In this document: in pieces, positions 38,652 through 42,113 of the stretch
Numbering within the stretch: the stretch's first letter is position 1
How the letters are laid out: each line of letters opens with the position of its first letter
Origin: Acidimicrobiia bacterium
GTDB lineage: Bacteria > Actinomycetota > Acidimicrobiia > IMCC26256 > PALSA-555
Reading direction: 5' to 3'
NCBI GenBank assembly: GCA_040881685.1
Contig: JBBECS010000032.1
Coordinates: forward strand, 1-45,858
Length of the DNA stretch: 45,858 nucleotides
Translations under genes and position numbers: made by a program
Notes under the pieces: generated by a model
Database searches by the model: none
Seen by the model: only the letters and a program-made list of their open reading frames with translations
What the model was told of the DNA's origin: nothing

Positions 38652-40046
38652 CTAGCGACGCAGGACGTCGAGGAGCGTGGCCGCGGGCACGACGGTGGCG
38701 CCTTCGGCCTCGGCGTGGTCTCGGACCCAGCCGTCGGACGAGGCCACGATCACCGGCACCCGCTTGGGCCGTGCGCCCACCTCGCGCACGACGACCGGGT
38801 CGGCCTCCTCCCCCGCCGCTGAGAACACCACGTGCACTCCGGCGCGCTTGGGCTGCGACACGCCGACGACATCTGCGCCGTCGAAGACGACGAGCACGTC
38901 ACAGCGGAGCCGAAGGTGGAGGCGTTCGAGTGCCGCGAGGAGACACGTGCGCTGTTCGGCCGGCCGCGCGTCGGACCAGCCGGCCATCGACACGTTGTAA
39001 CCATCGACGATGAGCGCGAGGCCGCGAGTTCGGAGCATCGTGTCGAGCGCTTCTGGCGTGTCGGCGCGCATCCCTGGCGGGCATGGCACCCGCGTCCGCT
39101 TGGGTGCGGACGTCGGGGCATCGGGTGCGTAGGGCACCGGGGGTGCTGCGTCGCGGGCTTGGCGCGTGATGCCCTCCAGGGAGGTCGCGAGGTTCCGTGC
39201 TGCTTCTGCCGCGATCGCCAGCGCCTCCAGATCGGGGGTGTCGGCCTCGACCCGGTCGGGCTGCGCACGGGCGTTGAGCTCGCGACGCGCCAACCGGAGT
39301 TGGAGCTCCGCTTCACGGGCCCGATCCGCTTCACGCTCGAGTCGTGCCTCGGCCGTCGCGGCGCGCCCCGTCGCCTGCTCAGCAACGAGCTCTGCGTCGT
39401 TTCGACGTTGCTGCGCGTCGTTGACTTCGCTCGCTGCGCTCTCCTCCCGCTCCCGGCGCGTGGCGCGCTCGTCACGCAGCTCGGTCTCGACCCGGGCCGT
39501 CGCGGCCTGCGCTTCGTCGCGGGCCTGCTCGGCTCGACGACGAGCCTCCTCGACCGATGCCAGGCGCACTTCCCAGGCCTTCGTGTCGTCCTCACGCTCG
39601 TGCTCCGTGCGGTCACGCTCGGCCGCGGCACACACCATGCCGAGGCCGAACGTCCACCCCTTGGGGCGGGCGGCGTAGAGAGCAGACGCGAGCAGCGGCA
39701 GGTCGGAGCGCTCGGCGGCGTCGGCCACCCGCTCGGGCGCGGCGTCGACCGACCATGCCTCCAGCGCGGCGGCCACTTCGGGCTGCTCACGGAACTTCTC
39801 GACGACGTCGTCGCGGAAGCCGTCGTCGACGTCGAACGCGCGCCGCAGCTGTTGACGGGCCGGGCCGCTCGTCGTGAGCCGTCGACGGTCGAATCCGGCG
39901 AGCGGCCTGAGCACACCCGGAGCATCACCGGGATCCAGTCGGGCCAGGACGCTCGCGGCGACGTCGAGGAGCGGCACGAGGAGCGACTCCGCAACCGGCA
40001 GGGTCTCGCCGATGCGAGAAGCCTCGCGTTGGGTCGAGGAGGTCAC
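38652..40046 (-). CDS. NYN (YacP-like) domain protein with coiled coil
   Basis: A 464-residue protein. Residues 1-~140 are a helical N-terminal domain, ~145-285 a long charged coiled coil (Arg/Glu/Ala-rich), and ~345-464 an NYN/PIN-like nuclease domain with LIVDGYNVSMAGW, VLVVFDGAD and VIVASSDGWVRDHAEAEGATVV, the acidic metal positions of YacP-type RNases. GTG 40046 overlaps the stop of the Zn-ribbon gene as GTGA. The promoter of this two-gene unit overlaps a consensus SOS box, suggesting induction by DNA damage. RNA or DNA as substrate is not decided by the sequence. Confidence 0.85.
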   Translation of the reverse strand: MTSSTQREASRIGETLPVAESLLVPLLDVAASVLARLDPGDAPGVLRPLAGFDRRRLTTSGPARQQLRRAFDVDDGFRDDVVEKFREQPEVAAALEAWSVDAAPERVADAAERSDLPLLASALYAARPKGWTFGLGMVCAAAERDRTEHEREDDTKAWEVRLASVEEARRRAEQARDEAQAATARVETELRDERATRREREESAASEVNDAQQRRNDAELVAEQATGRAATAEARLEREADRAREAELQLRLARRELNARAQPDRVEADTPDLEALAIAAEAARNLATSLEGITRQARDAAPPVPYAPDAPTSAPKRTRVPCPPGMRADTPEALDTMLRTRGLALIVDGYNVSMAGWSDARPAEQRTCLLAALERLHLRLRCDVLVVFDGADVVGVSQPKRAGVHVVFSAAGEEADPVVVREVGARPKRVPVIVASSDGWVRDHAEAEGATVVPAATLLDVLRR

Positions 40047-40267
40047 GTCTCGGCCGGCGCCTCCGCCGGCACGATCTCGATCGCATCTCCCGACGCGCCA
40101 CACCAGCGGCACGACACCTCCTCGACCACCTCGTCGAGCACCGCCTCATCCTCCACGGTGAGCTCACCGGCCACGCTGAAGTGGTGGAACGCGCGCGTGC
40201 GGCGCGTCCCGACGACGTCGAAGCGGGTGAGATTCCCGCACGCGGTGCACCGATAGCGGATCCCCAT
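40043..40267 (-). CDS. 74-residue zinc-ribbon protein, first gene of NYN operon
   Basis: A small protein with two CxxC knuckles, Cys7/Cys10 (RCTACGNLTRFDV) and Cys53/Cys56 (CRWCG), separated by a TRRTRAFHHFSVAGEL segment and an acidic stretch. This is a split zinc ribbon suited to nucleic-acid or protein binding. ATG 40267 has TAGACT 7 nt upstream and no Shine-Dalgarno sequence. Its stop overlaps the start of the NYN gene, so the two proteins are produced together and may act as a complex. Conserved pairing elsewhere is recalled but not checked. Confidence 0.8.
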   Translation of the reverse strand: MGIRYRCTACGNLTRFDVVGTRRTRAFHHFSVAGELTVEDEAVLDEVVEEVSCRWCGASGDAIEIVPAEAPAET

Positions 40268-40274
40268 CGGGATC

Positions 40275-40316
40275 AGTCTACAAGTCGGGTCCGGGATTGC
40301 GAACAGATGTTCGCAA
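40275..40316 (-). promoter_or_regulatory. LexA (SOS) box and promoter of the Zn-ribbon/NYN operon
   Basis: A perfect 20-bp palindrome (40297-40316; arms TTGCGAACA / TGTTCGCAA, 2-bp centre) contains CGAACAGATGTTCG at 40300-40313, matching the actinobacterial SOS consensus CGAAC-N4-GTTCG. On the minus strand TAGACT (40275-40280) is the -10, and TTCGCA, 17 bp upstream inside the palindrome, is the -35. LexA bound here would block transcription. Confidence 0.75.
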
Positions 40317-40330
40317 CCCCGACCACGGCC

Positions 40331-41062
40331 TTAGCCGCGTCGACGCACCCGCGATCCGCCCTCGGACGAAGCACCGGCGCGGCTCGGCGCGTCGGCATCG
40401 CGGTCATGCGACAAGCGCTTCGCACCCTCGATGAAGACGGTGACGAGCACCGCGGTGACCAGGGCCCAGAGGGCGACGATCACGAGCAGCGGCACGAAGC
40501 GCCCGATGTCGTGCTTCACGATCACGTCGAGCAAGCGCTGGCTGTTCAGGTAGCCCGCCTTTCGGGCCGGTATCCCAACCACCACCAATGCGATCGGGAG
40601 CGCGAGCACCCAGGCGAGGATCCGGAGCGCGCGTGACGGCCCCCGGTGATCAGCGCTCCGAGCTCGTGACGGTGCCGACGGTGCACCCTCCGGTGGCGCC
40701 GCGATCGTGACCGACCCCGCTGCCCCCTTGGCGCCCGCGCCGGCCGGCGAACCGAAGACCGCGGTGTCAGGACCAGCTCCGCTCCCCTGCTCGGCGCCCG
40801 CGCCGCGGCGCCGACGCTTGGGTGCGGGCGGTGCAGCGGCTCCGGATGAGACCGCGCGACCAGCGCTGCCCGCGGCAACCGGAGCACCTGCGTCGGGAGC
40901 GGCCGCCTTTGACCGTCGACGTGAACGCGGCGGCGGGGCGACTCCGGAGCCCGACGATGACGTGAGGGCACGACCGCACCGCCCACAGGTCACGGTGTCG
41001 GGTGCCGGCGAACCCACGCGGTTGCGTGCGCCGCACGCAGGACAGGTCAGTGACTCGGCCAT
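40331..41062 (-). CDS. Zinc-ribbon membrane protein
   Basis: A 243-residue protein with an N-terminal zinc ribbon (Cys7, Cys10, Cys26, Cys29), a long Ala/Pro/Arg/Ser-rich cytosolic linker (about 35-140), two membrane helices (about 145-166 and 190-213) and a short basic tail. ATG 41062 lies one base after the trpD stop, so it is in the trpD transcript. No family beyond the ribbon is recognised. The architecture is common for uncharacterised actinobacterial membrane proteins, and no link to tryptophan synthesis is evident. Confidence 0.72.
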   Translation of the reverse strand: MAESLTCPACGARNRVGSPAPDTVTCGRCGRALTSSSGSGVAPPPRSRRRSKAAAPDAGAPVAAGSAGRAVSSGAAAPPAPKRRRRGAGAEQGSGAGPDTAVFGSPAGAGAKGAAGSVTIAAPPEGAPSAPSRARSADHRGPSRALRILAWVLALPIALVVVGIPARKAGYLNSQRLLDVIVKHDIGRFVPLLVIVALWALVTAVLVTVFIEGAKRLSHDRDADAPSRAGASSEGGSRVRRRG

Positions 41063-41063
41063 G

Positions 41064-42113
41064 TCAGAACCCCGCCTCCCGAGCCGACGCGCTCGTGCGT
41101 ACGAACGCTTCGAGAGTGGCCGCCGCGCGGCCGTCGTCGATCGCGGCGCGCGCGAGCTCCGCGCCTGCCGCGAGATCATCTGCGAGCCCGGCAACGATGA
41201 GCGCCGCGGCGGCGTTGAGGACCGCGATGTCACGCACCGGTCCCGACTCACCCGCGAGCACGGCCCGCACGGCCCCCGCGTTGGTCGCCGCATCGCCGCC
41301 CGCGAGCGCGGCGCGGTCGACAACCGCGAAGCCGAGCGCCTTCGGATCGATCTCGAAGCGCCGGATCGATCCGTCACGGAGCTCGAAGGCCGTCGACGTG
41401 GTCGTCGTCGTCAACTCGTCGAGGCCGTCATCGCCGTAATAGACGAGGGCGTGCTCCGCGCCGAGCTCGGCGAGTGCCCCGACCACGCGCTCAGCCATCA
41501 GCGGGTCGGCCACGCCGACCGACTGGCGGCGCACGCGCGCCGGATTGGCGAGCGGCCCAAGGAAGTTGAAGGTCGTCGGAACCCCGATCTCGCGGCGCGG
41601 TGGGCCGGCGAACCGCATCGCGGGATGGAACGTGGGCGCGAAGCAGAACCCGATCCCGGTTTCGTCGATGCATCGGGCGACACCCTTGCCCTCGAGCTCG
41701 ATCACGACACCGAGCGCCTCGAGCACATCGGCCGATCCGCAGTCGGACGACGCGGCGCGGTTGCCGTGCTTGGCCACGCGAGCGCCCGCGCCTGCGGCGA
41801 TGATCGCGGCCATCGTCGACACGTTGACGGTCCCGGCACGGTCCCCACCGGTGCCGCAGGTGTCGATCAACATCTCGGGCTCATCGACATCGACGCTGCC
41901 GGCGAACTCGAGCATCGTGCGCACCAGAGCCGCGAGCTCCGAGGCGGTCTCGCCCTTGGCCCGGAGCGCGACCGCGAACCCGGCGATCTGCGCGTCGGTC
42001 GCCTCCCCGGCGAGGATCGCACCGAGCGCCTGCTCGACCAGCTCGATCGGAAGATCCTCACGGCGCATCAAGCGCCCCAACACGTCAGGCCACAGCGTGG
42101 CGTCGCCCGTCAT
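41064..42113 (-). CDS. trpD: Anthranilate phosphoribosyltransferase
   Basis: A 349-residue enzyme transferring phosphoribose from PRPP to anthranilate, the second step of tryptophan synthesis. Motifs: DTCGTGGD (PRPP loop), VNVSTMAAI, KHGNRAASSDCGSADVLEALG, and FNFLGPLANPARVRRQSVGV. Length is standard. ATG 42113 has AGGAG five nt upstream, and the hairpin GGCCC-GAA-GGGCC abuts that site on the mRNA. No other trp gene is present; the downstream partner is a zinc-ribbon membrane protein. Confidence 0.96.
   Translation of the reverse strand: MTGDATLWPDVLGRLMRREDLPIELVEQALGAILAGEATDAQIAGFAVALRAKGETASELAALVRTMLEFAGSVDVDEPEMLIDTCGTGGDRAGTVNVSTMAAIIAAGAGARVAKHGNRAASSDCGSADVLEALGVVIELEGKGVARCIDETGIGFCFAPTFHPAMRFAGPPRREIGVPTTFNFLGPLANPARVRRQSVGVADPLMAERVVGALAELGAEHALVYYGDDGLDELTTTTTSTAFELRDGSIRRFEIDPKALGFAVVDRAALAGGDAATNAGAVRAVLAGESGPVRDIAVLNAAAALIVAGLADDLAAGAELARAAIDDGRAAATLEAFVRTSASAREAGF

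Follow-up and report, generated by a model that had tools for sequence, protein, structure and literature searches.

Escherichia coli Cho (YdjQ) is an SOS-induced second UvrC-like nuclease. As an SOS-controlled GIY-YIG nuclease it resembles the gene that owns the LexA-type box in relatives of the locus described here; in the lineage of our locus, in contrast, the GIY-YIG gene appears to have been lost and its operator kept. LexA control of a GIY-YIG exonuclease (COG0847) has been predicted in Bacteroidetes (PMC8565304). That case shares with ours the type of gene, RNase_T plus GIY-YIG under a LexA-type motif, but it concerns another phylum and another motif, and the passage devoted to it is silent on a zinc-ribbon/NYN neighbor. 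In Streptomyces venezuelae, recA, lexA, dnaE2, ruvC, alkB, and uvrA are core LexA targets according to ChIP-seq and RNA-seq (PMC9380542). The operator motif, these core targets, and the placement of the operator within the promoter are all matched in our case, while Table 1 of that paper does not list a zinc-ribbon/NYN operon. On the protein side, Rae1 is a ribosome A-site endoribonuclease of Bacillus subtilis (PMC6613710), and members of the NYN family have been described as ribonucleases (PMC11346440).

The stretch of DNA analyzed here (the window) comprises 45,858 nucleotides from an Acidimicrobiia bacterium whose genome (G000) amounts to 3.1 Mb in 54 contigs. Its minus strand carries a gene for a 74-aa CxxC...CxxC zinc-ribbon protein (40043..40267) and, overlapping the stop codon of the latter through GTGA (40046-40043), a GTG-initiated gene for a 464-aa NYN_YacP protein (38652..40046), an anatomy that we read just as an earlier note on this DNA had done. 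Ahead of the operon, the stop codon of a 243-aa gene (40331) is followed on the minus strand by TTGCGAACATCTGTTCGCAA (40316-40297), the hexamers TTCGCA and TAGACT 17 bp apart, 7 nt, and the ATG at 40267. The -35-like TTCGCA (40298..40303, minus strand) is supplied by the downstream box arm, an overlap for which both coordinates and sequence proved correct on re-reading, and the same geometry, a box arm followed after 17 bp by TACACT or TAGACT, is common to four other genomes (G001, G002, G004, and G005). Because only 7 nt separate the -10 hexamer TAGACT (40275..40280, minus strand) from the start codon, the zinc-ribbon/NYN mRNA is predicted to be leaderless, as had been proposed. The statistics of related loci agree: a TANNNT stands 4-11 nt before the zinc-ribbon start in 40 of 42 loci with an exact box, versus 10/42 for the reversed control pattern.

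The element itself had been described as a perfect 20-bp palindrome. We find that 40297-40316 reads TTGCGAACA-GA-TGTTCGCAA, with 9-nt arms that match perfectly on either side of a 2-nt center lacking symmetry. Nested within it, and within a 30-bp imperfect inverted repeat (40292-40321) whose arms reach 14 nt and form 13 pairs, lies the putative operator core CGAAC-N4-GTTCG (40300..40313; read as CGAACATCTGTTCG along the operon strand), assigned by motif match, the regulon of the same genome, and conservation. A pattern search of the whole window returned this single exact match.

The regulon of the source genome bears out the earlier reading of CGAAC-N4-GTTCG as a LexA box. Across the genome we count 24 exact matches to the motif; the reversed control gives 6. 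Fifteen of the 24 (14 distinct, one being repeated at two contig ends) have an R-N2-Y center, and the rest lie mostly within coding sequence. The window box is of the R-N2-Y form, as are those of recA, lexA, and dnaE2. Genes directly adjoining the sites include dnaE2 (L032), an alkB-like dioxygenase gene (L034), recA (L040; RecA match 1.3e-139), lexA (L041; Pfam LexA_DNA_bind 3.6e-28 and Peptidase_S24 1.9e-31), and uvrA (L052), while the ruvC site (L048) has a different center. Since identical motifs precede recA, lexA, dnaE2, ruvC, uvrA, and the alkB-like gene in the same genome, the element at 40297-40316 is, judged by its sequence, almost certainly a LexA operator. Three genes with HNH matches and a fourth with a similar start and no Pfam match (L035, L036, L043, and L050) each directly follow an exact LexA box and resemble the 13E12/DUF222 proteins, known LexA targets in mycobacteria. 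Exact R-N2-Y boxes were also seen at L031 (C1:10472), L045 (C35:79375), L046 (C36:62513, adjoining an amidohydrolase-like gene), and L049 (C45:34654). The identical recA operator occurs at the end of contig C15 and at the start of C19 (L038 and L040), so these two contigs probably join there.

Our literature searches turned up no relevant paper linking LexA with NYN domains and none describing the acidimicrobial LexA regulon, and an SOS-induced zinc-ribbon/NYN operon, which our analysis predicts, was not seen in it. The explanation that we favor, and regard as likely, is that a LexA operator sits on the -35 of a leaderless zinc-ribbon/NYN operon, that it was taken over from a lost divergent nuclease gene, and that its output is a Rae1-type RNase.

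The NYN_YacP domain (PF05991) of the NYN protein was recognized at E = 5.6e-16, with 59.4 bits against a cut-off of 24.6, and the aspartates D348, D389, D416, and D438 are invariant in 22 relatives. The AlphaFold model (mean pLDDT 87) comprises a helical N-terminal domain, a long coiled coil, and a C-terminal NYN domain, and it matches Rae1 (PDB 5mq9) with probability 1.00 and a TM score of 0.63 on the target. Rae1/YacP of B. subtilis (5mq8, 5mq9) is the sole significant relative among known structures in both sequence and fold, sharing the YacP-type NYN domain and the conserved Asp residues. Unlike the single-domain Rae1, however, the window protein adds about 340 residues, namely the helical domain and the coiled coil, and it has a zinc-ribbon partner gene and a LexA box. 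To call it a nuclease seems reasonable. A role in repair, with damaged DNA and not RNA as the substrate, would suit LexA control and the weak resemblance in fold to ExoIX and FEN-type nucleases, but with ribonuclease Rae1 as the closest structure and NYN-family members described as ribonucleases, RNA is the likelier target, and we regard the DNA alternative as doubtful.

The zinc-ribbon protein is less readily placed. Its four cysteines are invariant in an alignment of 22 relatives, and its AlphaFold model is confident (pLDDT 90) and all-beta. No Pfam family scored above its cut-off (the best, zf-nanos, reached 15.4 bits against 27), no PDB entry matched by fold at E<=0.001, and a PDB sequence search likewise gave no meaningful match. 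Neither protein matched a PADLOC defense model at E 0.01.

Comparison with related loci indicated which gene the box belongs to. With the 22-protein zinc-ribbon alignment we retrieved 80 loci in species genomes and 30 within the class. In most loci that carry it, the box is flanked on one side by the zinc-ribbon gene and on the other by a divergently oriented gene, here called EXO, whose protein carries an RNase_T (DnaQ-type) exonuclease and a GIY-YIG domain. In 100 distinct zinc-ribbon loci, box and EXO occurred together in 47, the box without EXO in 7, EXO without the box in 7, and neither in 39; the loci being ranked by zinc-ribbon similarity, these counts are not an unbiased sample, and the association (Fisher p = 1.5e-13) is uncorrected for relatedness. 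Four of the seven boxes without EXO are exact, all in the window's family, and the other three carry one mismatch and are few enough that they could be due to chance. Across the phylum, an exact box lies no more than 200 bp upstream of EXO in 30 of 38 loci, four more have one with a single mismatch (34/38), and the box-bearing EXO loci are mostly without an adjoining zinc ribbon.

The promoters point the same way. A TANNNT lies 0-3 nt from the box on the EXO side in 27 of the 37 exact-box loci with EXO and in none of the four without it (28 in exact-box loci against 4 for the reversed control), and in 26 of those 27 loci a start codon follows 4-11 nt beyond. With a TANNNT close to the start on both sides, EXO and the zinc-ribbon gene are probably both leaderless. 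To judge from this arrangement, the box serves the divergent EXO gene across Actinomycetota, with the -10 of that gene abutting the box. Of the 37 exact-box loci with EXO, 22 have the end of the box within 50 nt of the zinc-ribbon start, as do all four without EXO, so that co-repression of the zinc ribbon is plausible for a fair share of the class.

These data bear on the view of the earlier note that the zinc-ribbon/NYN pair is a dedicated SOS system with which the box evolved. In its favor, an exact box stands upstream of 16 of the 30 NYN loci in the order, the window included, and selection on the box is strong in the four genomes lacking EXO. However, the presence of the box tracks EXO, and where EXO and the zinc ribbon are not neighbors (L192, L193, and L199), it is EXO that has the box, which then lies 1.9-3.1 kb from the zinc ribbon. 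Moreover, in the Streptomyces-type genomes examined, a label based on genome size, completeness, and family pattern, zinc ribbon and NYN are adjacent with neither EXO nor a box beside them. The two genes are linked, but their partnership is not obligatory, because half of the zinc-ribbon loci are without a NYN gene within 1.5 kb: such a gene follows on the same strand in 42 of the 84 distinct loci whose sequence extends far enough. An antisense yjbQ (UPF0047) gene parts the zinc ribbon from NYN in many families; the same holds for G001, another species of the window's genus, where NYN would thus escape direct SOS control. We therefore consider a dedicated pair improbable. The earlier proposal of a DNA-damage-inducible nuclease with a zinc-ribbon partner thus survives in part: the own-genome regulon, the box arm serving as -35, and selection on the box in four EXO-less genomes argue for LexA control in this genome, whereas the pair as such does not emerge as an SOS system.

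The idea that the box belongs to NYN was likewise rejected, yjbQ separating the two in many families. A LexA-driven transcript could run antisense through yjbQ, which is found at L003:1000-1422(-) and in equivalent positions of many families.

Our preferred reading, that the operator of a lost EXO was taken over, rests on the window's family. EXO was not found in G000, G001, G002, or G005, where the searches gave at most a weak GIY-YIG match such as UvrC would produce; as several genomes are incomplete (G002 is 80% complete), absence beyond the locus itself is not certain in these. The EXO-less state comprises the window's genus and a sister genus. In the window, a tandem 243-aa gene with an N-terminal zinc-ribbon-like motif (40331..41062, minus strand) sits where relatives have EXO, and next to it lies trpD (41064..42113, minus strand), a conserved neighbor of the locus in relatives.

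In all four genomes the box is exact, lies 31-32 nt before the zinc-ribbon ATG, and has an arm 17 bp from TACACT or TAGACT. Conservation of the box at the equivalent position of homologous loci, the check that had been proposed, was indeed found, with 10/10 arm positions kept in G001, G002, and G005. In pairwise comparisons of the four, the arms are 10/10 identical and the -10 is identical at 5-6 of 6 positions, against 6-13 of 30 in the upstream flank and 6-10 of 17 in the spacer, in species whose NYN proteins are 56-71% identical. The data support purifying selection on the box in these EXO-less genomes. The NYN tree requires two changes for the EXO-less genomes, G005 grouping with G004 at 96/96, which means that EXO was probably lost twice, with the box kept each time. 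The sequence evidence speaks well for LexA control of the operon in this genome, which we read as a derived arrangement, an inherited operator having been taken over by the neighboring zinc-ribbon/NYN operon.

That the box is instead a functionless relic of EXO would fit the failure to find EXO in the genus genomes and the decay of its -10, which is gone from all four EXO-less loci with an exact box (0/4). Yet the ten specified positions have been kept in four diverged species while the flanks became essentially random, and the box arm provides the zinc-ribbon -35 at a fixed 17-bp spacing. Together with the probable double loss, this renders a useless relic very improbable.

G004 keeps both promoters, on the zinc-ribbon and on the EXO side, and its EXO (G004:C30:47732-48271, locus L172) looks cut to the exonuclease half, a 204-aa open frame, possibly an intermediate of gene loss.

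Under the take-over reading, the box would ancestrally have served the divergent EXO across Actinomycetota. In Acidimicrobiia the zinc-ribbon promoter faces EXO, so that one box could serve both genes; in the window's family a box arm would have become the zinc-ribbon -35, after which EXO would have disappeared, with no fewer than two losses on the NYN tree, and selection would have kept the box for the operon that was left. As long as the DNA is intact, LexA on the box would block RNA polymerase. Upon DNA damage, RecA-stimulated self-cleavage of LexA would free the operator, and the zinc ribbon would be made together with the translationally coupled NYN protein. The latter would act as a metal-dependent Rae1-type ribonuclease, with the zinc ribbon helping to bind RNA or the ribosome, and the operon would thus give the SOS response an RNA-cleaving output. 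Of the biochemical roles that the operon might have, such cleavage of RNA, aided by the zinc ribbon, seems the likeliest. A bolder version, in which damage would directly trigger cleavage of mRNA on ribosomes in some Actinomycetota through a ribosome-associated arm of the SOS response run from the lost nuclease's operator, strikes us as unlikely. Motif, regulon, promoter geometry, conservation, and gene loss at the locus are read from DNA sequence; LexA binding, induction, enzymatic activity, and the zinc-ribbon/NYN partnership are what we infer. If correct, the locus would exemplify stepwise gain of a regulon member, in which a divergent operator is shared, its original target is lost, and the operator is kept while the -10 of the lost gene decays. 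It also points to a widespread, uncharacterized actinobacterial pair of a zinc ribbon and a coiled-coil NYN nuclease, and predicts an RNase produced upon DNA damage in one lineage.

Finally, we give almost no credence to the inverted repeat being mainly a terminator of the upstream 243-aa gene and not an operator: the window repeat begins about 10 nt past the upstream stop codon and its RNA folds strongly (-28.4 kcal/mol, z -5.2), but it has no T run, a terminator/sigma-70 scan gave no match, and the conserved part is the LexA core. What led us to reject this role is the lack of conservation of the extended stem, which is absent in G001 and G005 (z 0.3 and -1.7) though the box is present there. 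An Rfam search matched no RNA family. In the window itself, the near-perfect 30-bp repeat at 40292-40321 might additionally serve to terminate transcription of the upstream gene.
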